Of a stretch of DNA of 64,000 bases, positions 22,359-43,902 are shown one piece after another (position 1 is the stretch's first letter; each line of letters opens with the position of its first letter). The notes under the pieces were generated by a model. The model did no database searches, was not told where the DNA came from, and worked only from the letters and a program-made list of their open reading frames with translations. This stretch comes from Collybiopsis luxurians FD-317 M1 (lineage: Eukaryota; Basidiomycota; Agaricomycetes; Agaricales; Omphalotaceae): the NCBI GenBank assembly GCA_000827265.1, contig KN834798.1:345013-409012 (forward strand), in the 5' to 3' direction. A program made the translations under genes and the position numbers.

Positions 22359-22369
22359 AAGAAAAGCAC
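22359..22369 (+). repeat. Left target-site duplication of the giant element
   Basis: AAGAAAAGCAC here and again at 43892-43902, while the undisturbed paralogous site in copy D (55222-55232) has it once. The duplication is 8 to 11 bp: the final CAC may instead be the first bases of the element. Confidence 0.85.
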
Positions 22370-22570
22370 ATAGCTCGGACCCCATTTACGTATTTAACAT
22401 AGCCCTATACACAGTAAAAATCGGGTACTCCCGTGGTAACAGGAAGGGTACCAAGGCGGTATTCACATGACATAAGCATCGTCGATTAGTAGAAGGTCAC
22501 CATGATTAAGCTTAGAGCGTAAAGCAGAATCCCAATACACCTGTACCTAGATTCAGGAAATTGAGGCATT
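22367..22570 (+). repeat. Left terminal inverted repeat
   Basis: Matches the reverse complement of 43673-43891 over most of its length; the right copy has about 20 extra bases between CATAAGCATC and ATTAAGCTTAGAGC. The outer ~28 bases are poorly conserved between the ends; the inner ~170 are well conserved. Confidence 0.85.
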
Positions 22571-25500
22571 AACAATAGGCATCCTTTCCACTGCCTGTTT
22601 TTAGAGGCAGGGTGCCCTTTGCTGTAGTAGAATGCAGCTGCCTATTGCTGTATCTGGATACAGGCAGCCAGATGTGAGTGACTGTATTTGAAATGACTGC
22701 CTGCCAATACAAGAAGCTGATGCCTGTATCCATATGCAAAGTATCCATAAGTGTATTGCCTATTTTGATTATCTGCTGCTGTACTATACAGGTAGTGAAT
22801 TGAATCTGCATTCCAAATGGCTGCCTCTCCATACAGGAACCTGGATATCTGATGCCTGGTCATATATGTGGAGCTCATGATGGTTTCATCCAAAAACAGA
22901 GGATTTCGGGGCTGTCTCTAAAAACAGAGAATAGACTTTCACTGCCTGTTTCCAAATGCAGGATACTCCTTGCTGGATCAGGATACAGGTAGCTAGATGT
23001 AGGGTGCCTGTATGTGGAAGCAAGGAGTCTAGTTTACCTGCCTGTTTTGTAATGCTTGCTTCTGAACAGTTGCATCTACCTACATGTAAATGCAGATTGT
23101 CTTATGGCGGCATGTAGAAATAGGGAGCCTACCTTTACCTGCCTATAGTGCTTTGTGCAGAAACAGGGAGAATAATTTTACCTACCTGTTATGATATGCA
23201 GGGAAGTTCCTGCAGACAGTTGTATGTATATTATTTGACTGCTTTTGGAATCAGGGAGCTTACTTTTACCTGCCTGATTTGAAAACAGGCAGGTTGCAGT
23301 GAATGGTTGTATCCCAAAACAGGCAGCTAAAAATGTACACCCTGTTTTTAAATGCAGTAATTTGATGCCTGTATTCAAAGAGCTCTTTGACTGCATTTAG
23401 AAGCAGCGAGCGTAATATCATCTGCCTGTTTTGAAATGCAAGTTTCAGTGAATGGTTGCATCTCAAAACAGGCAGCTAAAAATGTACACCCTGTTTTTAA
23501 ATGCAGTAATTCAATGCCAGTTTGTATATTCATAGAGCTCTTTGACTGCGTTTAGAAGCAGGGAGCTTACTTTTACCTGCCTGTTTTGAAATGCAAGTTG
23601 TAGTGAATGGTTGCATCTCAAAACAGGCAGCTAAAAATGTAGACCCTGTTTTTAAATGCAGTAATTTGATGCCTGTATGTATATTCATAGAGCTCTTTGA
23701 CTGCATTTAGAAGCAGGGAACTTACTTTTACCTGCCTGTTTTGAAATGCAAGTTGTAGTGAATGGTTGCATCTCAAAACAGGCAGCTAAAAACGTAGACC
23801 CTGTTTTAAATGCAGTAATTTGATGCCTGTATGTATATTCAAAGAGCTCTTTTACTGCATTTAGGAGCAGGGAGATTACTTTTACCTGCCTGTTTTGAAA
23901 TGCAAGTTGTAGTGGATGGTTGCATCTCAAAACAGGGAGCTAAAAAATGTAGACCCTGTTTTTAAATGCAGTAATTTGATGCCTGTATGTATATTCAAAG
24001 AGCCCTTTGACTGCATCTAGAAGCAGGGAGCTTACTTTTACATATCTGTTTTGAAATGCAAGTTTCAGCGAATGGTTGCATCTCAAAACAGGCAGCTAAA
24101 AAAATGTAGACCCTGTTTTTAAATGCAGTAATTTGATGCATGTATTCATATTCATAGAGCTCTTTGACTACATTTAGAAGCAGGGAGCTTACTTTTACCT
24201 GCCTGTTTTGAAATGCAAGTTGTAGTGAATGGNNNNNNNNNNNNNNNNNNNNNNNNNNNNNNNNNNNNNNNNNNNNNNNNNNNNNNNNNNNNNNNNNNNN
24301 NNNNNNNNNNNNNNNNNNNNNNNNNNNNNNNNNNNNNNNNNNNNNNNNNNNNNNNNNNNNNNNNNNNNNNNNNNNNNNNNNNNNNNNNNNNNNNNNNNNN
24401 NNNNNNNNNNNNNNNNNNNNNNNNNNNNNNNNNNNNNNNNNNNNNNNNNNNNNNNNNNNNNNNNNNNNNNNNNNNNNNNNNNNNNNNNNNNNNNNNNNNN
24501 NNNNNNNNNNNNNNNNNNNNNNNNNNNNNNNNNNNNNNNNNNNNNNNNNNNNNNNNNNNNNNNNNNNNNNNNNNNNNNNNNNNNNNNNNNNNNNNNNNNN
24601 NNNNNNNNNNNNNCTGTTTTGAAATGCAAGTTGTAGTGAATGGTTGCATCTCAAAACAGGCAGCTAAAAAATGTAGACCCTGTTTTTAAATGCAGTAATT
24701 TGATGCCTGTATGTACATTCATAGAGCTCTTTGACTGCATTTAGAAGCAGGGAGCTTACTTTTACCTGCCTGTTTTGAAATGCAAGTTGTCGTGAATGGT
24801 TGCATCTCATAACAGGCAGCTAAAAATATGCACCCTGTTTTTAAATCCAGTAATTTCTTTGACTGCATTTAGAAGCAGGGAACCTAATTTTATCTGCCTG
24901 TTTTGAAACGCAAGTTTCAGTGAATGGTTGCATCTCCGAACAGGCAACTAAAAAATGTCGACCCTGTTTTTGAATGTAGTAATTTCATTGACTACATTTA
25001 GAAGCAGGGAGCTTACTTTTACCTGCTTTGAAATGCAAGTTACAGTGAATGGTTGCATCTCAAAACAGGCAGCTAAAAAATGTAGACCCTGTTTTTGAAT
25101 GCAGTAAATTGATGCCTGTATGTATATTCAGCTCTTTGACTGCATTTAGAAGCAGGGAGCTTACTTTTACCTGCCTGTTTTGAAATGCAAGTTGTAGTGA
25201 ATGGTTGCATCTCAAAACAGGCAGCTAAAATATACACCCTGTTCTTAAATGCAGTAAATTGATGCCTGTATGAAGCTTATTTTCACCTGCCCGTTTTGAA
25301 ATGCAAGTTGCAGTGAATGCTTTGAACTGCACATTTTCCAATAGTTATGTCTGAAAACAGGCAGCTACAAGCATACCACCTGCCTGAAAATGCAGGGTAT
25401 CCATTCCTAATCTCAAATATATATATGCACAATGCCCTAAGGCCATTGACTGCATCCAAAAACAGGGAATGTACTTTCTCCCTGCCTGTATTGAGGTGCA

Positions 25501-25640
25501 GATATTCTCAATTGTTGCATATTCCATAAGTGAATAGTCCTGGCCTGTATTTATGTGCAGTGTGCTTTATCATTGCATTCAAAATAGGTGGCTGACAATT
25601 TGATATTGTACTTGTGGACTGTCATTAAAATAGAAGTACA
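22571..25640. repeat. Left subterminal satellite array, ~155-bp unit
   Basis: The landmark GAATGGTTGCATC recurs at 23301, 23450, 23605, 23760, 23914, 24070 and 24226. After the assembly gap it is at 24638, 24794, 24922, 25047 and 25199. The spacing is 149-156 bp with two shortened units (128 and 125). Each unit holds cores of the type CCTGTTTTNAAATGCAG in alternating orientation. At 23578-23629, for example, TGCCTGTTTTGAAATGCAA is followed 14 bases later by its inverse TTGCATCTCAAAACAGGCA. Further on, ACCCTGTTTTTAAATGCAGT is paired with ACTGCATTTAGAAGCAGGG. The flanks (22575-23270 and 25260-25600) have the same cores at looser spacing. No protein-coding potential; apparent ORFs are artefacts. 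Confidence 0.95.
24233..24613. other. Assembly gap (381 N) inside the satellite
   Basis: A run of N flanked on both sides by the same satellite unit. Landmarks on either side are 412 bp apart, not a multiple of ~155, so the gap length is probably arbitrary and repeat copies may be missing. Confidence 0.99.
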
Positions 25641-25649
25641 ACTTTAATT

Positions 25650-26192
25650 CTACTTTAATAATGCGTCCGCAATCAGAATCAGGTCGCGAAGCTCATCCTC
25701 GAGCACTAGAATGGATTCAAGTTCTTGTTTTACTTCTTCCAAATCATCAGCTTTTCGCCCCATCGCCTCTTGCATGTCGTAAAGCTCACGATGCAGGTCT
25801 TCCCTCTTGTCCATTAATTTCTCTTTCGATTTCAGGACACTGCGCCAACGCCTTTGAAGTTGTTCTCCAGAGAAAGACGGGAGCCGCTCACGTTCATTAT
25901 ATGACTGAACGGTGCATCGCCGAACTAGAATTCATCGCGTAAGTATCAAAAATTTTCCCTGAAAAAGCAACTCACGCTGAAGAGCAGTCCATCTCTCTAG
26001 TGGCAGGCCATCCAGTGAACGATCCCGGTCAGTTTTATCTGACCAATCCAGTCCTGCATCACCAAAATCGGGTCTGACGTTGTTTAGGAGAGCGACACGC
26101 CTATGTCTATTGAATGGCGATGTAGGTTCTGGCTCCGGTGAGGCATCTGGAATGAGAGGCTCAAAATTGCTGGTTGAATTTGGCATGTCCAT
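25650..26192 (-). CDS. Coiled-coil protein of unknown function, element cargo 1
   Basis: Two exons. Exon 1 starts MDMPNSTSNFEPLIPDASPE, with a Pro/Glu-rich head, then FNRHRRVALLNNVRPDFGDA and RDRSLDGLPLERWTALQ. A GTGAGT...TAG intron (about 50 nt) leads in frame to LRRCTVQSYNERERLPSFSG, QLQRRWRSVLKSKEKLMDKR and a heptad-rich C-terminus (EVKQELESILVLEDELRDLI), stop at 25650. The in-frame junction and clean intron argue for a real gene. About 165 residues. The C-terminal two thirds should form a coiled coil, so oligomerisation or binding to another element protein is plausible. I do not recognise the family. It lies directly downstream of the RPA14-like gene on the same strand, 86 bp apart. Confidence 0.72.
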
Positions 26193-26277
26193 TTTGGAGG
26201 TTAGAAAGGTTTATTACCAAATTTGGCCACGGCTTTAAAATTCAAAGCGGCAAATTAATACAACTTCTATGATACGC

Positions 26278-26881
26278 CTATTTTTCGACTTCCACACTGC
26301 CCTGATCCAAAGCCGCGATAGCGGCGGCATTGTGCTGCGCATGTACATTGAAAATGTCAGTTGCCCATGGCTCCCGGTGGATAATATCAATAACAGATCT
26401 CATCATCTGCGTATCTGCAATCCTGTGTGTGAGGATTGGCAAAAACAGTGCCAGGTTCAAACTTACCCAGATCATTGCCCATATTCCTCATCCTTGTTGC
26501 GACGAGGAACTCCACACCCTCGTTGCAATATTTGCCAAGAATTTCAACAAATCTTGTCCATGGCTACAGAAGATAGTAAACAATTAACAGCCAACCAGAG
26601 TGATTTGACAGGATCTAACCTTGCCATCAACCAGCGTTGTACTAACTTGAACATGTACTTGATCACAAGTTAGAACCAGCAAAGAATCTCGGCGATCCTG
26701 AATCACTATAAGCGTCCCGTCGAGCCAATACACATATTGCATTTACCTCTATAATCTCACAGGGAAGGGTCACATAACAACCTACAAAACGAGGCAACAA
26801 TTTGCCATGTACGCGGGGACTAAATCCCTCGTATGGTTCAAGGGGTTCGGTTGACACTGCAGAAGTTGTGTCTTGAGTCAT
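26278..26881 (-). CDS. RPA14/Rfa3-like single OB-fold protein, element cargo 2
   Basis: Four short exons joined by 45-60 nt introns. Exon 1 (MTQDTTSAVSTEPLEPYEGF) leads into RVHGKLLPRFVGCYVTLPCE. Exon 2 gives DRRDSLLVLTCDQVHVQVST with TLVDGK. Exon 3 gives PWTRFVEILGKYCNEGVEFL and RMRNMGNDL. Exon 4 is IADTQMMRSVIDIIHREPW ... VEVEK stop. The order RVN-x-x-LLxxFVGxxV, a beta hairpin, V-x-V, W-x-FVEIxG, G(D/N)DL, then a helix is that of the replication protein A 14-kDa subunit (Rfa3), which helps RPA bind single-stranded DNA. An upstream in-frame Met (26920, MLKRLHHSLFSKL) could lengthen it. A host genome needs its own Rfa3; a copy inside a transposon suggests that the element recruits or replaces RPA during transposition. 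Homology is judged by motif order only. Confidence 0.65.
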
Positions 26882-27008
26882 GAGTTTTGAGAATAAGGAA
26901 TGATGAAGGCGTTTCAGCATTAAATAATGCGGCGCGCGCGGTCAGACGCGAAAAAAACTAAGTAGATTTTGACTAAACGGGTGCTGAAATGCCCTAATGA
27001 ATTTATCC

Positions 27009-27529
27009 CTAGTAAAGATCGTACCCCCCTTTTACGCGCAAACCCGATATATCACGATACCAAGATTGCCACATATCAGCCATCTCACTATCACAACATT
27101 CCAGAGCTTTGGAGTATCCTTCCAATGCAATAGCGAGGCATTGGTGTCTTTCCACATAAGCCGCATGCATGCGGCCAAGCATCTCCCCTAGGGCCCGTTT
27201 GAACATTTCACGTTGGTGCATAGTCACAGCCTCCTCTGTACTGTATCATCAGAATACTGAAACGAACCCTTAAAAAACGTACCTTGCGACACGGGGGAAA
27301 CTATGTTATCGCAAGAATGGGACATTATGATATCCTGAGCTGGATCGGCATACATACATGGAAGTCCAAATGAAATAACCAACCTTATTACTATGGCGAT
27401 GAGTAAATGGAGGAGTAGAAGGTGTATAATTTGAGGCTCACTGCTGATTTTGTAGAATTCTCTCAAGTGGACGGCCGCCCTTGTTGGAGTCAAATGCGAA
27501 AGAGATCAAGGTCGGGCGCCATCCGCCAT
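27009..27529 (-). CDS. Small helical protein of unknown function, element cargo 3
   Basis: The last exon encodes EEAVTMHQREMFKRALGEML and RMHAAYVERHQCLAIALEGY, ending VKGGYDLY. It is joined through a 40-50 nt intron to DIIMSHSCDNIVSPVSQ. A further upstream exon probably reads TRAAVHLREFYKISSEPQII plus a Leu-rich helix, which would start at MADGARP (27529). In that frame a TGA interrupts after MADGARP, so the 5' end is uncertain; a shorter start MYADPAQ at 27355 avoids it. No recognised domain; the conserved part is amphipathic helix. It is one of five consecutive minus-strand or divergent genes left of the transposase. Confidence 0.5.
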
Positions 27530-27766
27530 TGCAAATTTGATACCAATTGAGATACACGAGTGGAGATATACGTATTACGAACACCATCCAAAGAGACATG
27601 AATGATAGCAATTCGGAGAGACACAAACTACGTACTACCACTGGCTTGCTCAATGCCATGGTAGATTGCAAAAAGAAGATTGTAATAAAAATGTTATGCG
27701 CAGAGCCAGTCCAAATATATGTGAACAGAGAAAATTTGTATGAACCCACAGGTTCCGAAGGAGAGA

Positions 27767-29256
27767 TTATCTATTACTGCTGCCTTGCTCGATGCCATCT
27801 AATTGTTCCAGGAGCAGCTGCTTCTGTTTCAGCTCTCGCTCCAATGCATCCTTTTCCGCGCGTAATTGCTCATTCTCTGCGTCTTTAGCCTTGATAGTTT
27901 CATTGGCGTCATGATTTTTGGCGGCCAAATCTTGGTAAGTCGACCGGCGTGCAAGTTGGATAGAGGAGAAGGTCCGTGCCATACTGCAGTGAAGATCGTT
28001 GAGCAAATCCTCATTAGGCTCATCCAATAACCGACGAGATGTAAAGTGTATAAATGGTTTATGCCGCCCGTCTGGGGTGAGCGCACCAAAATACATCCAA
28101 CATCCCGTCTGTTCGCAGAGTCGCTCGAGCTGTAACGAGAATTCAACTCTTACATCGACTGCTCATGTAGTAGTGAGACGCTTACCCGGTTCAACAAAGG
28201 GGGGATAGCCCACCTAAAACGAGCGGTAGCATCCGACTCCTCTTTCAGGAATGTGGGGAGGGGATGTGTTCTCGGAACCACTGTTAATAGTAAATTAGAT
28301 GAGAGTGATACTAGAATAAAAGTGAGAGTGTACTCCATGGCAAAGTTCCACACCCCAGTCCAGAAATGCATCCATACGGGGTCTTAATGACTGCATTTCT
28401 GTCTACCAAGGCAGGAGTTTGAGGAGTCATTGCAAGAGTCAATACAGGAGTCTGGGGGGTGCTTAGCAGGGCAGCACCACGTGGAGGAGTGCTGGATGGA
28501 GGAGTGCTGGAGGAAGCAATGGCGCCACTGCCAGAAGATTCTTTGGCAGGCGTGAGGAGGGCAGGATCGATGGTTTGAGTGTACTGCACCCTGTTATGGT
28601 TGACCACAGTCCTGGTCAGGGTGGACTGTATAGACTGGTGAGTATAAATTCATTTTGCAAAATCAAACTCACCGTGTTGGCGACGGAGGGAGACGGAATC
28701 GTTTCCGAGTTACTCTGTCATAGAGTATGATTGAGAAGAACGCACGTTATCATCAGTATGGGACTTACAGGTGCAAAGAGATCCAGAGACGCTGCCCTAT
28801 TCCCTAGATTTATCGGCGAGCTCATTGCCTGAGTAGCAGCTGGCCGTACTGGAGTTGACGGATTTTGGGAGAAGGTGGTGCCGGGACGAGAACCACCATC
28901 TCCACCGTTGCGTCGAGTGAGTAACTGCTGGATCTCAGTGGCCGAGGCTCTCTCGGGGCACTCAATACCTGCAGCACTGATGGCCCTTCTCTACAATGAA
29001 TGCATTAGCTTGAGTCTGTTAGGATCTTATACATACATACCAAAGCACCATATGCCTTAGAATGCAGACAGTCCAGAGAAGTGCGCAGAGGGTGATCTGG
29101 ACACTGCTTACAGCGCTGTGGAGCGCGAGCTTTCTTCAAAAGGGGAGCCGGTTTGGTTTTGGTAGGTGAGTTCGATGAAGGATTTCGTTGGAAAAACTGA
29201 TTTTTCCTAGAAGGTGTTGGTTTTCTTGGGGATTTCCTGGGACTAGTAGTGGCCAT
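27767..29256 (-). CDS. Basic N-terminus + Cys cluster + coiled-coil protein, divergent partner of the transposase
   Basis: Six exons with good splice signals. Exon 1 starts MATTSPRKSPRKPTPSRKNQ, a basic SPRK-rich stretch like minor-groove (AT-hook/SPKK) binders. It then has a Cys/His cluster RCKQCPDHPLRTSLDCLHSK. Exon 2 continues RAISAAGIECPERASATEIQ; a Pro/Ser/Thr-rich middle follows (IDPALLTPAKESSGSG). The next exons read PRTHPLPTFLKEESDATARF-RWAIPPLLNR, then LERLCEQTGCWMYFGALTPD and KPFIHFTSRRLLDEPNEDLL. The protein ends in a long coiled coil (AENEQLRAEKDALERELKQK) with stop at 27767. About 430 residues. Its start lies 150 bp from that of the transposase, on the opposite strand, so the two share a promoter region and are probably co-expressed. 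A DNA-binding accessory factor is my inference; the family is not recognised. Confidence 0.72.
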
Positions 29257-29405: not shown

Positions 29406-32400
29406 ATGTACCGTGATACTGTGAAGCGGTCGCCGTCCCCAGTCCCCCTGCGAGGAGCGACTCCCTGGGAGCTAGAACAGGATTACCTACCTCTACGACA
29501 GGAAGGTGGATCCGGTATTAGATACAGTCCTCAGAAAAAATCCCGTCGTACGAAAACTCTGGTTGTTGCAGCAAAGCGACAGAAGAGAGCACCTGCCCTA
29601 CAACGACAATCAGCAAGTACAGTCCAAGACACTTTGACTGATGGTGGACCTACCCAGAAACACAATCTCACAGTGCCTCAGACTGTTCCACCGCAGCAAG
29701 TCCAAGGAGAAGACATCTATAACAACACAGCACTTGTTTTCCCAGACACTCCCAATACCCAATTTCCATCCCCCATCACCAACAAAATTCATGAAGATTT
29801 TGCATATTACACTGAAAGTGTTCTTTCCAGATGCGTAGGATTCATTCGCTTGCACGGAATGATGTTTGCGGTGGAAGGATGGTCGGATCACACTGGGGAA
29901 GGAACAGTGAGTATTTTCTGCAGTGAGAGGTACTTGCTGACGCTCTAAACTAGGACCGGTGGTATCATTTTGAAGCGTCGACACAGGGAAACCATAGTAT
30001 CATTGTTTGTACTTGCCCGAATAGTGAATATCAGTGTATTCACAAGCGTTTCTATGCTTTACATGGTGTCTATCATTTTCCGATGACCGAGAGTGAATCG
30101 ACAGGTGTGTAAAAGGAGATATTCTTCTATGTAAAAGCTGATAATGAGATAGGATTGTACAAGCGGGTCATCATGTTTCGGAAAGAGATTACAGACATAG
30201 GTGGCGCGCTTGCCATTCACCACTTCTCCGTTGCCAAATCCAATGATGAACTGGGATTGGCACATCGAGCGATGGTGAGATACAAAGGCTCTGACACAGG
30301 TGAAGGCATATGGAAATGCTTCAAGGATGGAGCGGTGTGTGCTCATATAACTGCGGCTCGGAACTCAATGCGAGGAAGTTCTACCGATGGCGAGAGTGAT
30401 GAAGAAACCGAAGAGACGCCGTCTTCATGCAATATAGATATCTGTAAGTGTGGGATTATTGTCTTAGAACGCTGAAGACTGTTCTGAAAAGTTTCCTAAG
30501 CCAATCAGAGAAATTACAATGATCACAGGGCGGTCTCGTACTTACCAATACTCCCTCCTGCATGGGCGACACTCCCTCAAGAGAATGTCGCCTACGATCG
30601 ACCCCCGCCTCTTAGAATACCTCCTGAACTCATCAAGTTGGACCAATTTTCCTCCTGTTGCTGCAGGGATGGCGGACGAGCCTATTACAATCCCGAGAAA
30701 CCGACTCTAACAAGAAAGGGAGTCTTGTACACAACTCAAGAAGCCTTCACGGTCGATATCGAGCTGCAGGTCTGTCCAAGATGCCCCGCAGCAAGTCGAA
30801 AATTCATCGGCCCAGATCCCAGAAATATTGGCCTATTCAATTACAACAATCGACGTCTTTTTACGCACGAGCTGTTCACTGAGTATATTAGCGCATTCAC
30901 CAGCTCCGAAACACCCATTGATCCATGGGTTGAACACGTCACTCACCGATACCAGGAGACGGCCCACAATGACACAGATAGCATCCCCTTCATTGGTGGG
31001 GAATTGTTCAGGGTCGTGTGGTTTGCTTTCGTTTGGCTAATGACCCTCGAGCCCGAGCATCCCAATTTCAGGGGTTGTCCTCTGTGTAATGAGATGCCCA
31101 AGAATGTAATTTGGGATGGCGTCTCTATTTCTTTTGGCTGGAAGCAAGTAAATGACAGCCTCTGTCCTCCAACTTTCACCGACTCCGACTCAATCAAGCG
31201 CCCAAGTAGATCATGTCCGAATAAGGGGTGGCTGGGTGACGGCGCACGGCGCAAACAGCTGCGAGAGTGGTTGGGTAGTGGGCTAGACAGCAAAGTCCAA
31301 GCAGGAGATAAGAACAAGAAGAAACTGATTGAGAATGCCTTGGCCTGACAAACCCAATTTCACGACCTCAAACATTGGCTAGCGATGGAAGACAGTCATC
31401 TCGGCAAATTTTTCGAGAGATCTATGGGTTTCAATGTCCTGCATAGTGATTTTAGCTGGAAGCCTTGTGTCCAGCACCTTAGACTCTTCCAACTGGTGAG
31501 TGAATGCCATTTACTGCTGAATTTGCATCAAACTGAAAGGCATAAGCTGAGTGCTGAGGAATCAACTATCCAAGCAGTGAATCGACCAGCTCTGAGAGCA
31601 CTGAAAACCTTTGTCAATCATCCAACATATTCCAACGCTCGCGCCCTCGACTGTGTCCCAACCCTTTACAAAATCCTTGAAATGGAATACTGTGCAGCAA
31701 AGGGGTCATTTCCGGTCGATATACTCGGGGTTGTGCATTGGATGACCGGAAGAGCGGATGAAGTTCTGGGGAAGGTCCTTAATTCAAATACCGCATCTCT
31801 TGCACTCCTGAAGAAGACACCACCACCTGAACATGTTGCATCTGGAGGTACAGAGACTAGGGATTGGGAGAAGGTTAGTACTCATGGTTCGAGATTGGGA
31901 AAGATACTCACAACTGCATAGACCGGATGTTGGTACCTGCTGCCGCAGATACGCCAGAGACCGTTGTACCCTCACATACCCCATGATGGTAAGTCAGAGC
32001 TGAACCCAGAGCGTTCAGGAACATGTCGAAAGTACTATGATGAGTACTCAAAGAAACGACTAACTGGCAGAATCATGGCTTGCTGGTGCAGCCATAGTAT
32101 CTGCTACGGGTTCCATTGCATGCCACTCGCGGAAGGACGAAATGACGTGTTCTCAGCAATGTTAACAAGATGGCCCGAAGCACCGGAGCGTGTGGTATAC
32201 GACTACGCTTGCGCCCTGGGGCCATATTGCTGGACTCGGGAGCCGGAGTTCTTCGCCGACATGCAGTTCGTGATTGATGGGTTCCATTCGACTGGTCATA
32301 CAAAATGCTCAACCGCTTCCTTCCTCAAAACGTATGCCGATGTACAACCTGCTTTGGCAAAACTCAACTCTAGCGCGGCAGAGTGCGGGAATAGTGGTCT

Positions 32401-32530
32401 TGCGAGGATTCAAAAATCAGTTAGCTATATGGGACAAGAACGAGCAGTTTTATATTGTTGGGTATTTCTATGGATATGGAATCGTCTGCGCATTAGGAGC
32501 ATGTTTCAACGAAGTAAAAATGCATTGTAA
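29406..32530 (+). CDS. KDZ-like transposase with SWIM and Cys-cluster domains (possibly interrupted)
   Basis: About 950 residues over six exons. Exon 1 (29406-29906) is a basic, low-complexity leader with KKSRRTKTLVVAAKRQKRA. Exon 2 (from 29954) has a SWIM finger: CTCPNSEYQCIH (CxCx(n)CxH), with the adjacent WYHF and KRFYALHG. Exon 3 continues LGLAHRAMVRYKG and WKCFKDGAVCAHI. Exon 4 has the Cys cluster LQVCPRCPAASRKFIGPD, FNYNNRRLFTHELF, AFTSSETPIDPW, and RGCPLCNEMPKNVIWDGVSI. The C-terminal catalytic-type blocks are VVYDYACALGPYC, FVIDGFHSTGHTKCS and NSSAAECGNSGLARI. They match the YD-x-AC / H-x(n)-H-x(3)-C / E order I know from KDZ transposases; the two Asp and the Glu are DDE candidates. 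A TGA at 31346 breaks the frame unless an unusual GTCCAA...CTAG intron (about 31292-31381) removes it. Confidence 0.78.
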
Positions 32531-33740
32531 ATACCTAGTTTCACAATAGATGGGCAATATGGTATGCTATCCATTGTGCGACTATTCGGGATTTCCGTAA
32601 ACAGAACAAATCACTGTGCTAACTGAGGTTCCGATGTTAAGGTGTTGGCAGCCTGTCAATAGGATTTTTATTAAGTCTGCTTTCGCAGAGGGAAATACTC
32701 AGTATGGTACTCAGTAGTAGGGGGTCAAAGGATAGGTATCGAAGAGGAGGAAACCACTACATGAGTACAACAAGCATAAAATTAAGTGTCTAGTGTTAGT
32801 CTAATGGTATAATGGTACTGCTGGTTAATTGTATGTTGGCATATGTTCAATCCCCGAGTTGGTCGCTCTTTTATGGATGCCTTTTTCTCAAGTTTTTTGG
32901 ACTCTTTTTAAATAAATTAGTTTTTGAGAGAAAGGTAATAGCGATCTGAACTCTATATGATTTGCACCTTGAGACAAGGAAGCACTTGATAAATTGAGTT
33001 TGGGATGCTTTCGAGGATGTACTATGCACGGTCAACCGTCAGGGTTCCCTAATGCTGTTTAAGAACATTAACCAGACAACATAGAACTACGATGGAATAC
33101 ATGAGAACTACAGTTTTAATTAAACATCAATGGGAATTAGCGCATGCATCGGAACAAAACGCGGATGCAATTGACTTTATGAGACTTGGATACTCGTTGA
33201 TACTTCTCTATTAACCATACGAGTTTTCTATGTTCTGAATATTGCCCGTCAACACATTCCCTGCTTTCCCGTCACCTGGGCATTGCGATCCACCATGATG
33301 GTATGCACCTAGATGAGGAGTAAAAGAATTTAATCAAATTAATATTCTACTGCACACGAATGAATGAAACATGCCGATCCTAGTATTGGTGAGAGCGAGT
33401 GATAGTTGAATAAGACAGGTTGGGCAGGGAGCCTTCGAAGACTCGACGACGTTCGCGACAGCTCTATGAATGACAGTGAATCAATTCCACGATGCATATA
33501 AGGCGATGGGGGGGAACACAAGGGATCGTTGGCCACATTAACTTCACAAATCCAGTCGCCAACCACTCGCCAACCACTCGCCAACTCAATCGCCAACTCA
33601 ATCGCCAGGCTCAATACCATCCACATCACTAAGGTTCATTTGACTGCTCGAAGAACTCCTTTCAAAGACACATAGACCATGTACATTCACATATTGCAAT
33701 ATATTTCCGAACAGAATCTACACAGTTTGCAACAAAAAAG
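32531..33740. other. 1.2 kb without gene
   Basis: No convincing coding region on either strand. It contains a degenerate tRNA-like stretch (described separately) and, at 33560-33605, three tandem copies of GCCAAC(C/T)(A)... of the type CGCCAACTCAAT. It is probably the 3' flank of the transposase and of the minus-strand gene beginning at 34820. Confidence 0.5.
32797..32876 (+). other. Degenerate tRNA-like sequence
   Basis: An A-box-like TTAGTCTAATGGTATAATGG and, 40 bases on, a B-box-like TGTTCAATCCCC, followed by GCTCTTTT. The spacing fits a Pol III internal promoter, but the stems do not pair well. Likely a tRNA relic or SINE head. Confidence 0.35.
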
Positions 33741-34820
33741 CTACTCCTTCTCTAAAGCCCTCAAAACATATGAGATCCTAGCCAAGGTGTCCCCGAGTGA
33801 AAACACCGCGATACAGCTCTCGCGAAAAAACATTTCCATGTCTCGTTGATCAGGGAAGTAGTTCAGGGGAAGATCGAAGAAGGTTAACCATTCCTGATAG
33901 ATCGAGTCCCCATCCATATGAGCTCGCTGTAATGTAGGGACATCGAACCTACGGACATAACAGAAATGGCCCAGGTGGCCCCATTTTCGAATGAACATTG
34001 AGGACTTTTTGCGTAGGGGGAGCAGGCTCTCGTTGAAGACCCAGGTCGTATCAACATCGGTTGCAAAGGGTGAGACTTCCGAGGATTCAACCCACGAAAT
34101 CAGCTCCAAGTCCACATTTGGGGAGGGTGGACAGATAAGAAGGAGATCGGCTCTCCTTGAACCGAGTGACACTTGAATCGTGCATACGACAGAGTAGATA
34201 AGTCCCAGGTCATGACTGTCAGAGGGGACATGATCCTGCAGAAGCCGCTGCAGCTTCAACGATAGCTGCTCAGCGTTAGCCATGTGGTGGAGAACTAGAC
34301 CCAATGGAGTTGTCGGTACTGCACAATCGGCTTGTTCGATCCATAGGTGATGCTGATGCTGCAAAGCGAGGAGTTCGCGGAAGACTTCATACATCTTGTG
34401 AACGGATGGTCCTTGGTACTTCTGGATCTTGGGAGATGGTTCCAGTTGGACACTGGGCACCGTTATCTCAGCCTCTTCTTTCTCCGAGGTTCCGCTTTCA
34501 CAATCAGAGGCCTGCAAAGATGATGGAAGGTCTGCAAACATTGCAGCCTTTTCAGCTCTCCTCTGGGCTCTCTTTGTTCGAGCATATTTACGGCTTTGCT
34601 CACAACGCGCCTCAGCATGACTGAAGTGATAACGTTAGAGGACACCTATGAATGTATAAAAAATATCAACGTACTTCCAATAATAAGTAAAATCCTTCCC
34701 GGGTTTCGATGGGGGGGATTCTGAGTCCACTGCGAATGTCCGATCTAAACATTGAGTAGAAGGGCTCCTTTTTCTTCTCTTCTGCTTATTCCTCTGCTTG
34801 CCGTTCCTTTGCCTCTTCAT
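33741..34820 (-). CDS. Hypothetical protein with basic N-terminal motif, element cargo 4
   Basis: Two exons. Exon 1 starts MKRQRNGKQRNKQKRRKRSP, a strong nuclear-localisation-like run, and ends KDFTYYW. A GTACGT...CAG intron joins it to SHAEARCEQSRKYARTKRAQ, an Arg/Lys-rich helix. An acidic stretch follows (SDCESGTSEKEEAEITV), then KYQGPSVHKMYEVFRELLAL. The large globular part includes SVVCTIQVSLGSRRADLLLI and WVFNESLLPLRKKSSMF, ending YVLRALEKE. The YYW-SHxExRxExSRKYAR pattern at the exon junction is one I associate with short basic DNA-binding helices in mushroom repeat proteins, but no named family comes to mind. About 320 residues, frame open throughout, so it is probably intact. Divergent from the next plus-strand gene. 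Confidence 0.6.
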
Positions 34821-35029: not shown

Positions 35030-38000
35030 ATGACCTGTGAGCAGATGCACCCTTGTGTGAATACTGCTAACATGCCGACTGACTGACTGAGTAGACAACT
35101 CGAGAGAGCAACTTCTAAATAAAATAACAAAGTTAACCAATACGCTGGCCACGAAAAGGATTGAACTCACATATGCTGCGACGGCTAGTGGCCGGAAGAC
35201 CAGAGAGAAGCATATTGAAAAATGGATGGTCGAGTTGGAACAAGCTCAGACTGCCTTGGCAAACTTGGAGAAAACAGATGCTGGACGTGAGTCTGACTTA
35301 AACACTTGCTTGGTATTTTCTGAAAGCTTCCAGGGTCTTTCTCTCCATTGAGCCCAGTACCAGGTGAAGAAGAAGAGAGCAAGGGCTCAGTGAACACTTT
35401 AATTCATCAAAATACAGGAAGTGGTAGGTCTATACTTCGAAATAATATTGTCAGTGGAGCTGAATGGTGTTGTGACTAAACAGTACGAGAGTCTACACTC
35501 GCTTCAGAGGACAAACTTACAGGTAGTATAACCAATTCTCGAGCCAATGATCCTCCGGCGGACCCCTCAGAAACATCACTTCTGTCCTCTCCTCCTGCCC
35601 ATACCCATAAAGAACCAATCGAGTCCAAAAAAGAGGGTGGGGTGTCGCTGGAAACCAAAGAACACGATGAACCCGCACCCAGGAATGAGGGACATGACGA
35701 TATGCACTCAATAGATAGACAGCCCCCGGCGGCGATGGAAGATAGAAGTCCTGTGACTGATAACCAAGGACCCCAAGAGCTAGGGATGTCTTTGCCAGAT
35801 ACAGGTATGTGAAAGGAGGTAGACCCGCAGCCAGGCTGAGAATCATTCATAGTTGCTGTTCTTGATCATCAGTCTTCTACAAATCCCGCCGACGACATCT
35901 CTTCCACAGAACGCCGTCTTGCCAAGCTCATAAATACACTAGATCAAGCCATTGTCATCCCCGGTCCCCCATCCACACAAAATGTGGCCAGATACCAAGA
36001 TCCCCTCTCCAGGAAGATCGATAGTGTCAAGACTATCTGGAGACCTGAGCTTCCAAAGCTTGAATCTCCTGCTCAAAACTCCACAGATGAACTTCCCATA
36101 CATTGGACTAATGATGACAGCCTCATTGGGGGCATCTCCGCACAGTCTACCTCTCCAGGGCCATCTGGCATCGTTGCTGATGCGAAGGAGATGGTTGACG
36201 GTCACAATATCAATGTGAACATGGGGGCACAAACCGACATGGAATCTGATGGCACCGGAAAGACCTCCCTGGAGCCTGACTCTACAGGACAATCGAACGG
36301 CAGTGACACAGAATGATCGAATAGCGGATACCACGGAAAGGAGACGGATGCAAAACCGAGCAGCATCGAGAGTTCTACGAAGGATGCGAGGGAGGGAGCT
36401 GTGACTGATGTTGTTGGTTCCAATGCAGGTGCTTTGGCAGATGCGGGCAAGGACAGCATCCAAAGCCATGTGCTGCCAACTAACGATCAAACTCACGGCG
36501 CTTCCCTAGAGGCACTTTATGCGATGGCTGAGGAGCTTGGTGTTGAACTACAAACACTTCCACCATTACCTATCAAAGTGGAAACACCGGAAGGGCCATT
36601 ACAGCCAATGGAACAGAGATTTTCAAAGGGAAAGGCCAAAGCCAAGAGCAAAAGTGTTGGTCCAGCGACATCTGAGAATAAGGGTCAGCATATTCCTGGA
36701 GTAATTTCAATGCCTATTACTGACCTTGCAGATCTCAGTCAAAAGCGAAGGAGAGAGAGGGAAGAAGCGCAAGAGGAACGACACGAAGCATCAGTCTGGG
36801 GAGGGTGAGCCAAAACTCCAGTCAGAAAGAGATATACTTACCAGCAGATGAAGGGGGGCACGGAGGCATGCAATCCAAGAAGAAGAGGGAGAAATTCAGT
36901 GGTCAGTTCCTCATTCAACTTCTCATCCACAATTTATCTAACAATGATGTAGATTATATTGAGATCGATGGCGAAGAGGTCGGCGAAACGGATAACCATG
37001 TGATTGGACCGTCGAGCTTCAAAAGGGGGGGGAACCATGGTGAGGATGCACTCAACCTTCGTTCGACGGGTTACACTCTAATCGACGGCAAAAAAAAACT
37101 AGATGATGAAGAATATGTCGATGCTGATGCGGACGCCAGTGCGGAAGACAGTAAAGATATCAAGAAATCCGATAAAAAAGCCCAGCTTTGTAAGCGTCGT
37201 GAAAGCTGCACTGAAGGAAGGACGCTTATCATCATCTAGGGCAAAAGGATATGGCGGAGGCGATGACGGAAAAGTGGTTGGGTATGTGCTTCGTATACGA
37301 GACGGCCGAAATGAGTCTGAATAATGAATAGAGAAAGGGAACGAGGCGTGGAGCGCATGGTATTCAGACCCTGACGAGAATCCCCTCCCCCCAGGCGTGA
37401 GACTCAGAGCAAGAACTGTGGCTGAATACTGCCCACAATTGGCAACAACGTGCGAGAGGATGAGCTTGGAAGTTTTGACTAGTGAGGCCGGCACCACCCG
37501 TTGCCTTGCTCATACCCATATGCACGTCTTCAACCAACATGACCAGGTAGGATCTACTAAAGGGTATAAGGCCACTGGAACCCCTCACCCGGCGGTCCCT
37601 GCTCAGGAGAAACCGGAGGAAGGTTTTCTTCATTGCAGATGCAGAATCGACACCGCTCTCATGGAGCTGTACTTCTTCAAGACCGGAAAGATTGCCTCTG
37701 AAAAGAGGGGTCCAGATGGTGAGATTCTGGAGGAGCCGGTCGTTGAGGGCTGGTGTGGGATGAGACTGCAGCCCTGTCTGAGAGTGCTGATATTCAATCA
37801 AGTCGTGAGGGATATGGCGTGGAGTCTGGACTGTATCTGGGAAAGGAGGGAGAACGAGAAGGGGCAGTGGGTGATTCCCATAACTCCTATCGAAAGGCAA
37901 ATGAAGTTCATAACACGCCAGTTCAAGCAACTTAGTTGGCTGCAAGCTCAGGCAGACATTGAGATGCAGACGCGGATGCAGCAGACCGAGGAGGACAAGG

Positions 38001-38080
38001 GAAAGGCCGAGGAGAACGAGCAGAAGGGTGAAGAGAACAAGCAGAAGGCCGGTGAGAATGATATGGACATTGACAGCTAA
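35030..38080 (+). CDS. Large multi-exon protein of unknown function, element cargo 5
   Basis: Proposed start ATG at 35030: MTY, then an intron with CTAAC branch and TAG acceptor, then NSREQLLNKITKLTNTLATK, KTREKHIEKWMVELEQAQTA (coiled coil). Later exons are Ser/Glu/Pro-rich and disordered (PLSPVPGEEEESKGSV; PADPSETSLLSSPPAHTHKE), then STERRLAKLINTLDQAIVIP. A basic/acidic middle follows (SKGKAKAKSKSV, QKRRREREEAQEERHEA, VDADADASAEDSKDIKKSDK). The conserved C-terminal domain reads NEAWSAWYSDPDENPLPPGV, TVAEYCPQLATTCERMS and CLAHTHMHVFNQHDQ. It continues FLHCRCRIDTALMELYFFKT and GWCGMRLQPCLRVLIFNQVV, and ends in a Glu/Lys-rich tail. An in-frame TGA at 36314-36316 splits the disordered part. The His/Cys-containing C-terminal domain looks enzymatic or metal-binding, but I cannot name it. 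Confidence 0.6.
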
Positions 38081-38348
38081 CGAGTTTATTGTATGGTATT
38101 TCAGCTTGGGACGCCTCCCGTAGCTACATTTTTTTTGGGGTCCCCCCATAAAATAGATGAGCGTGCTGGAAGTAACCCGTGCACTGCTCAACGTTGGCGG
38201 TAGCGAACAAGTAGCTGAGGGTGGGAATGGGGTAAACAGTGGGCCGAAAGATAAGATTAAAGATAAGATAAAATACATTTGATAAATACACTTGATTCAA
38301 GAGGCGCATCGATCGTCCTCAGAAGATGTGCGCACCCCTTGCGAATGT

Positions 38349-38535
38349 GGTCTCCATGGTATAACGGATAATAGTACCTGTGCGACTTCGGCGAATGCTG
38401 AGCGTGGCGAGTTCGAATCTCGCATGAGGGCAAACAGCCCGGGACGGGCGTGATGTGTAGAGGTTCCGCAAGTCACTCCGTTGAGTAACTCTGCAACCTC
38501 TACCCACATGCCCGCCACTGGGTTGTTCTTTTTTA
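38349..38535 (+). ncRNA. SINE-like element: tRNA-Arg-like head joined to a long hairpin
   Basis: 38349-38432 is tRNA-like: GGTCTCCATGGTATAACGGA, ACTTCGG (UCG anticodon context), a perfect T-arm GCGAG-TTCGAAT-CTCGC and 3' TGAGGGC. It has A and B boxes for Pol III. It is followed by a foldback: 38437-38466 (CCCGGGACGGGCGTGATGTG, TAGAGGTT) pairs with 38495-38522 (AACCTCTACCCACATGCCCG, CCACTGGG). The inner parts GCA-AGTCACTC and GAGTAACTCTGC extend the stem to a CGTT loop. A TTTTTT run at 38529 could end transcription. The segment TGCTGAGCGT in the anticodon region is shared with the tRNA-like sequences at 9207 and 49008. Confidence 0.6.
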
Positions 38536-38736
38536 TCAATTTTGGTCAGTATCTAGCTCAACATCTTTGGGCAATTTCTTTCGGAATATTCTAGTTTAAA
38601 TCAAAGTAGTCGCAAAGCTCTGGTATGAGTGAAAGTTCATGTTGAAATGAGGATATACTTGGTACGTAACATACTTAGACACCAAAACAGATGTAATACA
38701 TAGCGCGTTGTTATTACTGAGTTGTGAGCTACTACA

Positions 38737-40294
38737 CTAACGGCTGTAGAAAAATTCCCAAACCAATTCTTCATTGTCAATTGCCCAGAGCTCGAACTTG
38801 ATTTGTCGCAGCTCAGTGTGAGTGAAGAAAGGAATAGCACTCTCCATTGCTCCCTCAATTACGCTGCACAATGGCCCAATATTTTCGGAAGGAATTCTCA
38901 TAACAGTCTTGCGGAGATCCCGGAGGCCATTGACTAGAAAAAACAGAAAGAATGCAACTTGCTTTATAAAGGTGAATCAGCTCAGGGCAAAATATTCAAA
39001 ACAATGGGACGTACAAACTGAAAATTACTCCCTATGGCACTGACTGCATCCACGCTGAGGATAAAGTCTAGATAGGAAAGACTCGGACAACTTTCCATGA
39101 CGCCCATTATGGATTCAGCCGTATACCCCATCGGGCTGTCAGAGATATCTTGGACAGTCAGATATTTGACCGGAATGTCTGACAGCACACAATGTAACTC
39201 GTTCCGAGCCCAAGGAACACCAATGTCTGTCACTGTTATGTCCTCCATTAACAAACCAGGATGCAGAGAAAGAGCAGTAACATCCTCCAGACTGCCAATG
39301 AAGCGACGAAGCCTTGGGAGAAGACCATGGGAGGAAATTTCCATCACATCGTATAACGGCGAACTTCCCGAATAACGCAACTCTTCGAGGTTAGGATGTC
39401 GCATGAAGAACTTGTTGAGGGAAAATACACAATGAAGTTCGAGCGTCAACACCCTCAGACGCTCGAAGAGGAAGGATGGAGCATCAAAAAGTTCGGCGAG
39501 AACCTGAGCCTTGTCATGCACGTATGTAGCTTCAGGAATGTGGACCTCCAAACATTCAAGGCTGGCAGTAACAAGAGATTGTAGGAGAGCAGCAATCATG
39601 CAGTAATTGGCTAGTTGAACCATTAGTTGGAAGAAAGAAAAATGAGCCAAAGACTTACCGGCTATGGATGGCGTGTTGAATGATAGCCTGCACTCGGTAA
39701 GTGACGATACACACAACGAGCTCTGGAAGTAAGTGAGCGAGAGGAATATGGAACAAACGGACTCGAACTTACCGCAAGATCTAGGGACTGTCCTTGGGGA
39801 AGTCTTGGATATGGAGCCAGTAATGAAAGCTGGCGAATGGAACATAAGAAATCGGGTAGCGGGGCATCCAAGAATCGCACGAGAGGAATATCGGGAGATG
39901 ACACATTGAGTCCCAGCAAATTTGTTCCTTTGACGGCGATGTTCTGCAGAGCATCCCTGATTGCCATCGATGTAAATTTAGAGCTGAGAGTAACGACTTT
40001 GACAAATGAGGCCGGATGAGGAGTCTGAAGAGGGAGCCTATCTTGATCTTTTTGAGCGAGAGTGAGGAGCGCTGTGTCGTGGGGGGCTCTATAAAGGTAC
40101 TCATTAAAAACCACATTATAATAAAGGCAAACTTTTGAAAGTCTAGAAAGTGCCAAGATGTCGGATGGAAATGTCAATTCCGATGCAATTTTTTGGAGAA
40201 GCTCTAAGGCCAGATGTCCTCTGCGCAAAGCAGGGTTGTAGAGTGCCACAGCGGTCGCTGAAGAGTGTCGCAGGCTGGACAGATTTGTGTTCAT
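38737..40294 (-). CDS. F-box/LRR-like protein, element cargo 6
   Basis: Four exons. Exon 1 starts MNTNLSSLRHSSATAVALYN and has an F-box-like segment LALELLQKIASELTFPSDIL-ALSRLSKVC followed by NEYLYRA. It then goes into LRR-like repeats (VKVVTLSS..., TNLLGLNVSSPDIPLVRFLD). Exon 2 is short (SLCVSSLTECRLSFNTPSIA). Exon 3 continues LECLEVHIPEATYV, LFERLRVLTLELHCVFSLNK, NLEELRYSGSSPLYDV and SCPSLSYLDFILSVDA. Exon 4 ends ELVWEFFYSR. F-box proteins dock substrates to SCF ubiquitin ligases, and such genes are greatly expanded in mushrooms. Splice sites are standard and the frame is open, about 430 residues. It may be a captured host gene. Next to it lies a broken relative. Confidence 0.7.
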
Positions 40295-40833
40295 TGATGC
40301 TCGGTAAAGAGGAGACAGCAACTTACAATTCCCTCAAATTTGTGGCATAACGTAGCGTTGTAAAGATCTCGTATTCAGGACCGACACGCATATACAATGA
40401 GGAAGTCAAACTTGGTTCACACTGACAGGCACCCAGGACGCTTAGCCGCTCGGTTATTCATCCCTATACCCAGTTTGTTATAATGTCCTGGTCAAATTAT
40501 TAGGCAAAAGATCAAGGACCGAGTATGTTTCAGAATGGACTTTACCGATTTCCAAAAAAAAAAAACCAGACGAGAGCGGCGCAAGACCGAATGCACGGAC
40601 ATTCTCAAACTATAGATCAACGCCGGACTGCAGCCGTCGGCTATGTGGCTTGGGAGACATGAAGACGCTGCGGTCAGAGCCGGACAGGCTTTTGCACCCT
40701 TTTGTGATTACTATGAATCTCATACTTAGAAACATCGGTTGACTGTATTAAATGACATATCGCGAGGATTTCGGTACACTCCTTTGTAGTAAAAATCTTT
40801 GGCTGCGTCCCGATTCGTCACAACTTTATAGGT

Positions 40834-41328
40834 TTAAGAATGAATGAATGTCAGTTGATAATGCCTGCTCGCCCAATTCAGAGTGTAATTCCTCATTGAT
40901 ACCTTCCATAAGTTCATCAACACCAAATCAGAGCCTTTAAGTGACAACAGCTTACCAAGGACACTGAAGTGGCTATAAAGGCGACTCATTCCCGACTCAT
41001 CCAAGTCAATAATATGTACCCGTTGGCGGAATGTGACTTTATCTAGTGCCGCCCAGACAGTTTCCGACTCCACTTTTGACAGGGACCCGAGGCCAGAAAC
41101 CACAAGGTAAAATTGGGCCTCCTCTGAATAGAGATGAACTTTACGGAGAGTTTGGATATAATTGGTGAGAACAAGAGTGGTACCAGAATAATGAAGAGAC
41201 GGTTCACATGCTCTAAGCATGCCCTGGATGCTGGTGGCAGAGATGTGCTGAAAAGTGACCAAGCATTGTTGATACGGGTTGTACGTGATGAGGGTCATTA
41301 AGAGACTTTGAAAGGGTGTATGAGTCAA
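40834..41328 (-). pseudogene. Truncated F-box/LRR-like relative
   Basis: The open frame resembles the later, LRR-like part of the preceding gene (TTLVLTNYIQTLRKVHLYSE, ...FYLVVSGLGSLSKVESETVW, HIIDLDESGMSRLYSHFSVL). No F-box or start region exists upstream, because the satellite array begins right there. At about 40920 the frame shifts: the other frame gives a convincing C-terminus VDELMEGINEELHSELGEQA ending SFLNL. Loss of the 5' end plus a shift make this a pseudogene. Confidence 0.55.
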
Positions 41329-41339
41329 CAGATTTGAAA

Positions 41340-43672
41340 TTTTTCAGCTGCAATGGATACCCTGCATTTGAAAACAGGGAAATGTTTTTAGCTGCCTGCT
41401 TCTAGATGCAGCTGTCCAGAATCCTGCAGTCCAAAACAGGAAAGTAAAATTTTCCTGCTGTTTCTACATGCTGTCAGAGGTTGGGAGTAATACTCTGTGT
41501 ATGTATTAACTGCCTGGGTTTAGATACAGCTCTTCAAAAACCTGCACATCAGAACAGGCAGGTCAAAGTATGTGCCCTGGGTCTACATGCAGGTATTGAG
41601 CCCATGCATTTAAAAACAGGGAGTATATTTTTAGCTGCCTAATTTGAATATACATATAGACAGCAGACATCTGCATTCAAAAACAGGGAGCATTAGCTGC
41701 CTGTTTTGTTTAGCTTGTCAAAAATCTGTATTTCTAAACAGGCAGGTAAAAGCATGCTCCCTGTTTTAAAATGCAGGGGTTCAATGCCTGCATGTAACAA
41801 CAGTGGGTATCTTTTCCAAAACCTGTAGGTCAAAACAAGCAGATGAAACAGTATGCTCCCTGTTTCTCCATTCAATTATGGAACTCCCTGCATATATGTG
41901 CAGGCATTGAGCCCCTGCATCTAAATACAAGCAGTATCATTTAACTCCCTGCTTTCAAATGCAGCTCTTTTTTAGCTGCCAGCTTCTAGACGCAGCTTCT
42001 CAGAAACCTGCATGTTAGAGCAGCAGGTAAAAGGATGCTCCCTGTTTCGACATAGACAGTCTGCATATACATGCAGGGTAGAACCCCTGTATTTAAAAAC
42101 AGGGTGTATCCCTTTTAGCGGCCTGTTTTTAGATGCCGCTCCTCAAAAATCCTGCATATTTGCCCTGTTTTAATATGCAGTCGGAAGGTGATCTGCATTC
42201 AAAAACAGGGAGTGTCTTTTTAACTGCCTGTTTTTGGACTCAGTTCTTCAAAAACCTGCATGTCAAGACAGGCACATGTAGGCATAGAACCCCTGTATTT
42301 AAAAACAGGGTGTATCCTTTTAGCAGCCTGTTTTTAGATGCAGCTCCTCAAAAATCCTGCATATTAGAGCAGACAGGTCAAAGTAGGTGCCCTGTTTCAA
42401 CATGAAGCTGGAAGGTAATCTGCATTCAAAAACAGGGAGTGTCTTTTTAGCTGCCTGTTTTTAGATGCAGTTCTTCAAAAACCTGCATGTCAAAACAGGC
42501 AGGTAAAAGGATGCTTCCCTGTTTCGACATACAGCCATTGGACAGTCTGCATATACATACAGGCATAAAACTCCTGTATTTCAAAATAGGGTGTATCCTT
42601 TTAGCGGCCTGATTTTAGATGCAGCTCCTCAAAAATCCTGCATATTTGCCCTGTTTTAATATGCAGTTGGAAGGTGATCTGCATTCAAAAACAGGGAGTG
42701 TCTTTTTTTAGATGCCTGTTTTTAGATGCAGTTCTTCAAAAACCTGCATGTCAAAACAGGCAGGTAAAAGGATGCTTCCCTGTTTCGACATACAGCCATT
42801 GAACAGTCTGCATATACATGCAGGCATAGAACTCCTGTAATTAAAAACAGGGTGTATCCTTTTTAGCAGCCTGTTTTTAGATGCAGCTCCTCAAAAACCT
42901 GCATATTAGAGCAGACAGGCCAAAGTAGGTGCCCTGCCCTGTTTCAACATGCAGCTGGAAGGTAATCTGCATTCAAAAACAGGGAGTGTCTTTTTTAGCT
43001 GCCTGTTTTTAGATGCAGTTCTTCAAAAACCTGCATGTCAAAACAGGCAGGTAAAAGGATGCTTTCCTGTTTTGACATACAGCCATTCAATAGTCTGCAT
43101 ATACATGCAGGCATAGAACCCCTGTATTTAAAAACAGGGTGTATCCTTTTTAGCAGCCTGTTTTTAGATGCAGCTCCTCAAAAGCTGCATATTAGAGCAG
43201 ACAGGTCAAAGTAGGTGCCCTGTTTCAACATGCAGCTGGAAGGTAATCTGCATTCAAAAACAGGGAGTGTCTTTTGGCTGCCTGTCTTTGGATGCAGTTC
43301 TTCAAAACCTGCATGTCAAAACAGGCAGGTAAACATGTAAAAGTTCTTCAACCAGCTGCATTTACAATCAGGGTGTATCTTTGGCGGCCTGTCTTTAAAT
43401 GCAGGAAGTTGAAGAACTGCATCGTAAAACAGGCAAGTATAAGTATACCCCCTGTTTTCATGTGCAGTCATAGGATGATCTGCATATACATACAGGCATC
43501 AAATGTGAAACCTTTTGTAGGTGCCTGTCTTGAGATACAACTGTTCACAAACAAGCATTGCAAAACAGGCAATTGAATTGCAGTCCGGCTGCCTGTATCC
43601 AGATACAGCAATAGGGAGCTGCATTCCACTGCAGCAAAGGGCACCCTGCATCTGAAAACAGGCAGTGGCAAG
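41340..43672. repeat. Right subterminal satellite array, higher-order unit
   Basis: Built from the same core as the left array, here mostly CCTGTTTTTAGATGCAG and its inverse CTGCATTCAAAAACAGG. In the central part a higher-order unit repeats: the landmark CATTCAAAAACAGGGAGTGT occurs at 42196, 42423, 42682, 42970 and 43251 (spacing 227, 259, 288, 281). Within one unit the order is: TGCATGTCAAAACAGGCAGG; TGCTTCCCTGTTTCGACATA; CATATACATGCAGGCATAGA; TGTATTTAAAAACAGGGTGT; CCTGTTTTTAGATGCAGCTC; CATATTAGAGCAGACAGG. The edges (41340-42130 and 43330-43670) are looser. No coding potential. The two arrays share the core but not the unit, so they have diverged or expanded independently. Confidence 0.93.
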
Positions 43673-43891
43673 TATGCCTCAATCTCCTGAATCTAGCTAC
43701 AGGTGTACTGAGATTCTGCTTGGTGCTCTAAGCTTAATTGTGGTGTGCTGTAAGCTACAGCTTAATTTTGGTGCGATGATGCTTATGTCATGCGGATACC
43801 GCCCTGGTACCCTTCCTGTTACCACGGGCGTACCCGATTTTTACCGCCCATAGGGCTATGTTAAGTACAATAATCGTTACCCACATAGGCC
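43673..43891 (-). repeat. Right terminal inverted repeat
   Basis: Reverse complement of the left TIR, e.g. GATGCTTATGTCATG, TACCCTTCCTGTTACCACGG, GTACCCGATTTTTAC and ATAGGGCTATGTTAA. The outermost bases here are TTACCCACATAGGCC. Confidence 0.85.
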
Positions 43892-43902
43892 AAGAAAAGC
43901 AC
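43892..43902 (+). repeat. Right target-site duplication of the giant element
   Basis: AAGAAAAGCAC, identical to 22359-22369; the interrupted DUF6533 exon resumes immediately after it (TGTACTTATGCCCACTGG). Confidence 0.85.

Follow-up and report, generated by a model that had tools for sequence, protein, structure and literature searches.

A multi-gene KDZ transposon inserted in one of two paralogous DUF6533 loci of Collybiopsis luxurians

The window, the whole stretch of DNA analysed here, comprises 64,000 nucleotides of contig KN834798.1 of the basidiomycete Collybiopsis luxurians FD-317 M1. Within it, a DUF6533 gene region occurs as four related copies, of which copies C (16690–22369 plus 43892–44837) and D (49028–56201) are the closest pair and are collinear. 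Copy C contains an insertion of 21,525 bp (22367–43891), a length that includes a gap of 381 N. The features of the insertion and its empty counterpart are as follows (TSD, target site duplication; TIR, terminal inverted repeat).

22359–22366: left TSD, AAGAAAAG, 8 bp, exact
22367–22676, plus strand: left TIR, about 300 bp; begins CACATAGCTCGG; outer 20 bp poorly matched to the other end
23234–25272: left subterminal tandem array, unit of about 155 bp, with the 381-N gap at 24233–24613
25734–27283, minus strand: gene A (one or two genes), coiled-coil-like by eye; model approximate
27767–29242, minus strand: gene B, core; conserved last exon 27767–28129; 5′ limit uncertain
29406–32530, plus strand: transposase gene T, with CxC4 (PF18717) and sub-threshold KDZ (PF18758) regions
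33741–34620, minus strand: gene D, core, without a known domain
35095–38080, plus strand: gene E, core, without a known domain; conserved last exon 37328–38080; 5′ part approximate
38348–38536, plus strand: structured RNA candidate, with a tRNA-like head, then a long hairpin, then a T run
38718–40333, minus strand: gene F, F-box/LRR-like by eye only, without a Pfam match
40834–41343, minus strand: open reading frame of 169 amino acids
41345–43505: right subterminal tandem array, in part an inverted relative of the left array
43582–43891, minus strand: right TIR; the reverse strand begins GGCCTATGTGGG
43892–43899: right TSD, AAGAAAAG, 8 bp, exact
55222–55229: empty target site in copy D, single copy, inside the predicted DUF6533 gene exon 55146–55279 on the minus strand

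An insertion with its empty site

Copies C and D are 89–96% identical in four main aligned pieces, and the insert is present in C only. When the flanks of C were joined in a script with one copy of the TSD, they aligned to D without a break through the junction (1,538 columns, 91.4% identity); the junction falls at query position 5677, inside the aligned piece 5116–6615. The interrupted gene lies on the minus strand, and the D-copy model, made with our own gene predictor, matches DUF6533 (PF20151, E = 4.8e-13). The insertion is thus confirmed. A preliminary description of this DNA had proposed a 21.5-kb element with TIRs in copy C, splitting a DUF6533 exon, with the collinear copy D preserving the site once (now placed at 55222), and had called for the alignment of C with D; the proposal is borne out. 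tRNA or tRNA-like genes occur at 9207–9290 and 49008–49091, near the left edges of copies B and D of the DUF6533 region, positions that possibly mark a duplication breakpoint.

Element ends in the window and across the genome

The TIRs are imperfect, matching in inverted orientation between 22390–22672 and 43868–43584 with 81% identity over 298 columns; the inverted ends described earlier stand, at about 300 bp. The subterminal arrays are about 2 kb each. Because the left array contains the N gap, it is the TSD and the empty site that link the left end to the interior, in place of an unbroken sequence. Matches to miRNA families in the arrays fell below cut-offs and were attributed to hairpins in the tandem repeats.

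Searches of the organism’s own genome covered 64.26 Mb in 200 contigs. The left 311 bp found eight similar places: the two ends in the window and six others. On alignment the ends are of two types, one beginning CACATA(G/C)CTCGG and, on the opposite side, one beginning GGCCTATGTGGG. The left ends on contigs C145 and C27 also start with CAC, next to unrelated flanks; CAC is therefore the element’s own terminus and the TSD is 8 bp, not the 11-bp repeated site first reported. Exact 8-bp duplications also pair split copies across contigs: C27 with C136 (AGAGAACG) and C145 with C128 (GGATCTGC). Two left and four right ends give eight possible pairs, and chance pairing was rejected, the random expectation of an exact 8-bp match being about 1/65,536 per pair. 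Exact 8-bp TSDs are thus in hand at four insertions, those of the window, C71, C27/C136 and C145/C128, the last two having been paired by the duplication itself, whereas C113 and C96 carry right ends without a partner. We predict from the matching duplications that C27 joins C136 and that C145 joins C128. Five of the six contigs (C27, C136, C128, C113 and C145) terminate no more than about 430 bp from where the TIR match has its inner edge; the breaks in the assembly thus fall in the arrays, a warning that the repeat arrays of these elements interrupt this assembly.

A related element on contig C71

In a DNA search of the same genome, the best long match to the interior of the element was 76% identical; a close intact sister was therefore not found in this assembly. 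A related element on C71 (81581–105314; 23,734 bp; TSD GCCCCTGG) has subterminal arrays and matches for genes A, B, T, D, E, F and G, and it and the window element are the copies for which both ends and TSDs are in hand. Its TIRs are 117 bp long and 87% identical; the inverted repeat that flanks them on the outside is part of the target, the insertion being inside a palindromic repeat (81101–81580 and 105315–105689) of a family with arms of about 370 bp. At C33:540925–541648 the same repeat family has a copy that no such element interrupts, consistent with a second empty site, in a looser test than that of the window (a palindromic repeat, with two TSD copies in the joined flanks). Relative to the genes between them, the two end types have traded sides in the C71 element compared with the window element (22367–43891), as if the interior had been flipped by recombination between the TIRs.

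A CxC4-type KDZ transposase

One exon of gene T matches the CxC4-associated-with-KDZ family, PF18717, far above its cut-off (E = 2.1e-41), and another matches KDZ transposase, PF18758, at E = 2e-4 and 21.5 bits, under the curated cut-off of 26.6, in agreement with the KDZ-like transposase first noted. The KDZ exon aligns in all 19 loci supplied to the comparison. Eight acidic positions in it are conserved in at least 17 of these loci, including Asp at 32201 (17 of 19), Asp at 32276 (18 of 19) and Glu at 32381 (19 of 19). We read these three as a candidate catalytic triad; the five other acidic positions are conserved too. The element combines a transposase domain with a candidate acidic core, an 8-bp TSD and TIRs, and is a KDZ-superfamily transposon with a CxC4 cluster and a KDZ core.

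A PDB sequence search with the KDZ exon returned one chance-level match. The genome yielded one sub-threshold Tet_JBP (TET/JBP dioxygenase) match, at C26:238489, which is not at a transposase match. Pfam detected no tyrosine recombinase family among the 20 of 41 open reading frames scanned, and no Maverick/Polinton polymerase, integrase or capsid family among the open reading frames and gene models scanned. An identity as a virus or Polinton was rejected on the lack of polymerase and capsid families in the scanned frames.

Gene content and a recurring core

There is support for six or seven genes in the window element, transposase included, fewer than the transposase and roughly eight further genes originally suggested. 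In T, E, B, F and A, third codon positions differ most (51–63%, against 8–48% at positions 1 and 2); D and G yielded no comparison. Pfam searches with B, D, E, F and G yielded nothing above a family's cut-off, and neither did NCBIfam searches with B, D, E and F. Single-sequence structure models were poor (pLDDT 44.5 for E and 39.7 for D), and a PDB sequence search with gene E gave no match.

Exon-wise protein searches of the genome gave 31 matches for T (some of them fragments), 29 for B, 28 for D, 33 for E and 41 for G. Within 15 kb of T we found B at 30 of the 31 transposase matches (two on C137 share one B), D at 26 and E at 27, with all three together at 23; G lies within 20 kb of T in 25 of 31. 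By a hand count, B, D, E and G all accompany T in 22 of 31. For each of B, D and E, a binomial test against random placement gives a tail below 1e-43, a result that shows linkage and not independent events, as the copies are related by descent. Few matches lack a nearby T (B, 0 of 29; D, 3 of 28; E, 5 of 33); for G the figure is 14 of 41, four of which adjoin E. These genes had been described as cargo, a term that is wrong for most of them: B, D and E, and G, which is absent from the window copy, recur with the transposase genome-wide. We also considered G as cargo limited to C71 and dropped this when further searching showed its recurrence. No match to G was found in the window copy, where the right array starts at the place expected for it.

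Gene B lies 2.6–3.2 kb upstream of T on the opposite strand in 29 of 31 cases. Six copies (window, C71, C81, C32, C55 and C56), which we call clade I, share the order B− T+ D− E+, followed by F− and G+ beyond. Clade II has the order G− E− D+ B− T+, with a fragment on C28, in which G is downstream, as the exception; one inversion of the B–T pair interconverts the two layouts. Strong matches to gene F are confined to the six clade I copies (weak matches on C24, C4 and C2, with E values from 1.8e-7 to 1.2e-4, were not counted), and gene A, searched with a short query, is near the transposase in at least four of the six. A single clade II copy, that on C146, was examined for element ends, and the 6 kb covered contained none; membership of one mobile unit therefore rests on synteny for this clade. 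Two clade II copies, at C60:129651 and C114:93920, are 96.8% identical over 2,603 bases.

A tRNA-like RNA candidate

The 3′ ends of E and F flank 190 bases in which tRNA-like boxes A and B, an acceptor stem and a T arm can be recognised, together with a long hairpin and a T run. This stretch occurs at the matching place in C71, C32 and C55 and thus, with the window, in four clade I copies (38348–38536 in the window; L051:5417–5606; L043:792–1010; L046:2330–2545). Of the 124 cells given by 31 proposed pairs, 98.4% pair, against 29–56% in slid controls, and six pairs are changed on both sides, a count reached by 5 of 500 shuffles; the structure was drawn from the same four sequences, which favours it. 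Rfam gave no match at cut-off in the window, and in the three loci searched at E 0.1 it likewise gave none. A covariance model run over the window plus 49 of 57 loci (50 sources, which mostly exclude the matching region of clade II) recovered only the four training copies, and also gave weaker reverse-strand matches at the same four places. A second tRNA-like stretch near 32800, picked out by eye, was discarded, having no match among the loci compared.

Decay of the window copy

The window copy is decayed: its transposase has an in-frame TGA at 31346–31348, where the C55 sister has a sense codon, and it is without gene G. A hand tally of the searches with T, E, F, B, D and G, which includes possible introns and distant relatives of G, gave 139 TGA, 11 TAG and 9 TAA as in-frame stops in element genes. 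This excess of TGA is as expected from the loss of methylated CpG. Observed/expected CpG is 0.74 in the interior, 0.95 in the left flank and 0.61 in the right flank; as the right flank is even lower than the interior, decay through methylation is only suggested.

Interpretation and alternatives

The window element has TIRs, exact 8-bp duplications and an empty site, and its lineage has a conserved transposase core beside which B, D, E and G recur; we are confident that it belongs to a lineage of large multi-gene KDZ DNA transposons. In the mechanism that we propose, the KDZ transposase would bind the TIRs and subterminal arrays, excise the element and integrate it at a target cut with an 8-bp stagger. 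B, D, E and G may be partner proteins that serve either transposition or escape from silencing, and the tRNA-like RNA would be transcribed by RNA polymerase III. The window copy arrived after the duplication that produced C and D, either while still intact or moved by the proteins of another copy, and has since decayed.

The locus might instead be a composite, in which a small KDZ element sits with unrelated host genes and nested elements that gathered at one place and the TIRs move little else. The restriction of genes A and F to some copies fits such a composite, but the six clade I copies share gene order and similar spacing on different contigs, and the C71 copy has its own ends and its own TSD; we judge it very unlikely. 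That a misjoin in the repeat arrays merely mimics an insertion is highly improbable: the N gap in the left array, and the five other contigs that end close to a TIR match, show that the arrays disrupt this assembly, yet the 8-bp duplication is exact at four insertions and the joined flanks of C match D through the junction. We give scarcely any credence to a duplicated host gene cluster with the transposase as a passenger. The conservation of B, D, E and G, many of whose matches read without stops, would suit a host cluster; against this, B, D and E have few matches away from T (G is weaker here), and two of the clusters, that on C71 including G, lie between TIRs and TSDs.

For the mobile multi-gene lineage itself, the occurrence of the same five genes at 22 of 31 transposase matches suggests a life cycle that needs more than a transposase. 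Our tentative proposal, which could well prove wrong, is a five-gene core, the KDZ transposase plus four element-encoded proteins needed for movement or escape from silencing, supplemented in one branch by a tRNA-like RNA made by RNA polymerase III. Descriptions of cut-and-paste transposons mostly list one or two genes; if the proposal is true, a gene-rich obligate core separates these elements from them. The elements also supply a new RNA candidate.

Comparison with known systems

Mavericks/Polintons carry DNA polymerase B, a retrovirus-like integrase and capsid genes, and Starships are giant transposons with a tyrosine recombinase captain (DUF3435). Like a Starship, the window element is a large multi-gene fungal element; unlike one, it has TIRs, an 8-bp TSD and a KDZ transposase, and its genes include a recurring core where those of a Starship are variable cargo. 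Starships, introduced in the preliminary description as well known in ascomycetes, are no longer confined to them, eight being reported in the basidiomycete Tremella (PMC13066641).

The KDZ identity of the window element is of a known kind, and the multi-gene core and the RNA candidate are the part for which we found no report. In the open-access literature searched, neither the set of B, D, E and G with T nor an RNA candidate of a KDZ element was reported; Iyer et al. 2014, which lies outside that search, may describe CxC4 neighbours. Other fungal examples include KDZ and Plavaka elements with TIR motifs in Marasmius (PMC8290104) and a CxC2-type KDZ in Pleurotus (PMC7641404). Zisupton, also of the KDZ superfamily, has TIRs and 8-bp TSDs (PMC12730594), in a nematode it is described with TIRs and without a detected TSD (PMC9297572), and fish Zisupton has an F-box isoform (PMC12062965) that may be compared with gene F. 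In contrast to the window element, the two Kyakuja families of Laccaria are described with 7-bp TSDs and without TIRs, and in contrast to the TET-bearing Kyakuja/Zisupton elements of the same paper (PMC12730594), the elements of this genome have no Tet_JBP match.

Two published groups of elements contradict the view that long TIRs and a KDZ core would set a basidiomycete cut-and-paste element apart as a distinct type. Giant KDZ elements reach 30.3 kb in Ectocarpus and 31.7 kb in Chlamydomonas, and accessory genes are reported to be frequent in fungal KDZ elements (PMC12477816). The algal giants resemble the window element in size class and extra genes, and their transposase is frequently decayed, with movement in trans proposed; they differ in being algal, and the account of them speaks of neither a fixed multi-gene core nor a structured RNA (PMC12477816). 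In the basidiomycete Cryptococcus neoformans, the mobile KDZ1–3 elements are 9–11 kb long with TIRs of 139–241 bp and TSDs of 8 bp (4–8 bp for KDZ2 and KDZ3) (PMC12810828); Cryptococcus KDZ elements with long TIRs and 8-bp TSDs are also described in PMC12510652. The account of KDZ1–3 describes the transposase and, in its text as distinct from its figures and supplements, mentions no conserved partner genes (PMC12810828). KDZ1–3 are of the CxC1 type and at 9–11 kb are smaller than the window element, but share with it a basidiomycete host, long TIRs, 8-bp TSDs and a zinc-chelating cluster joined to a KDZ transposase (PMC12810828).
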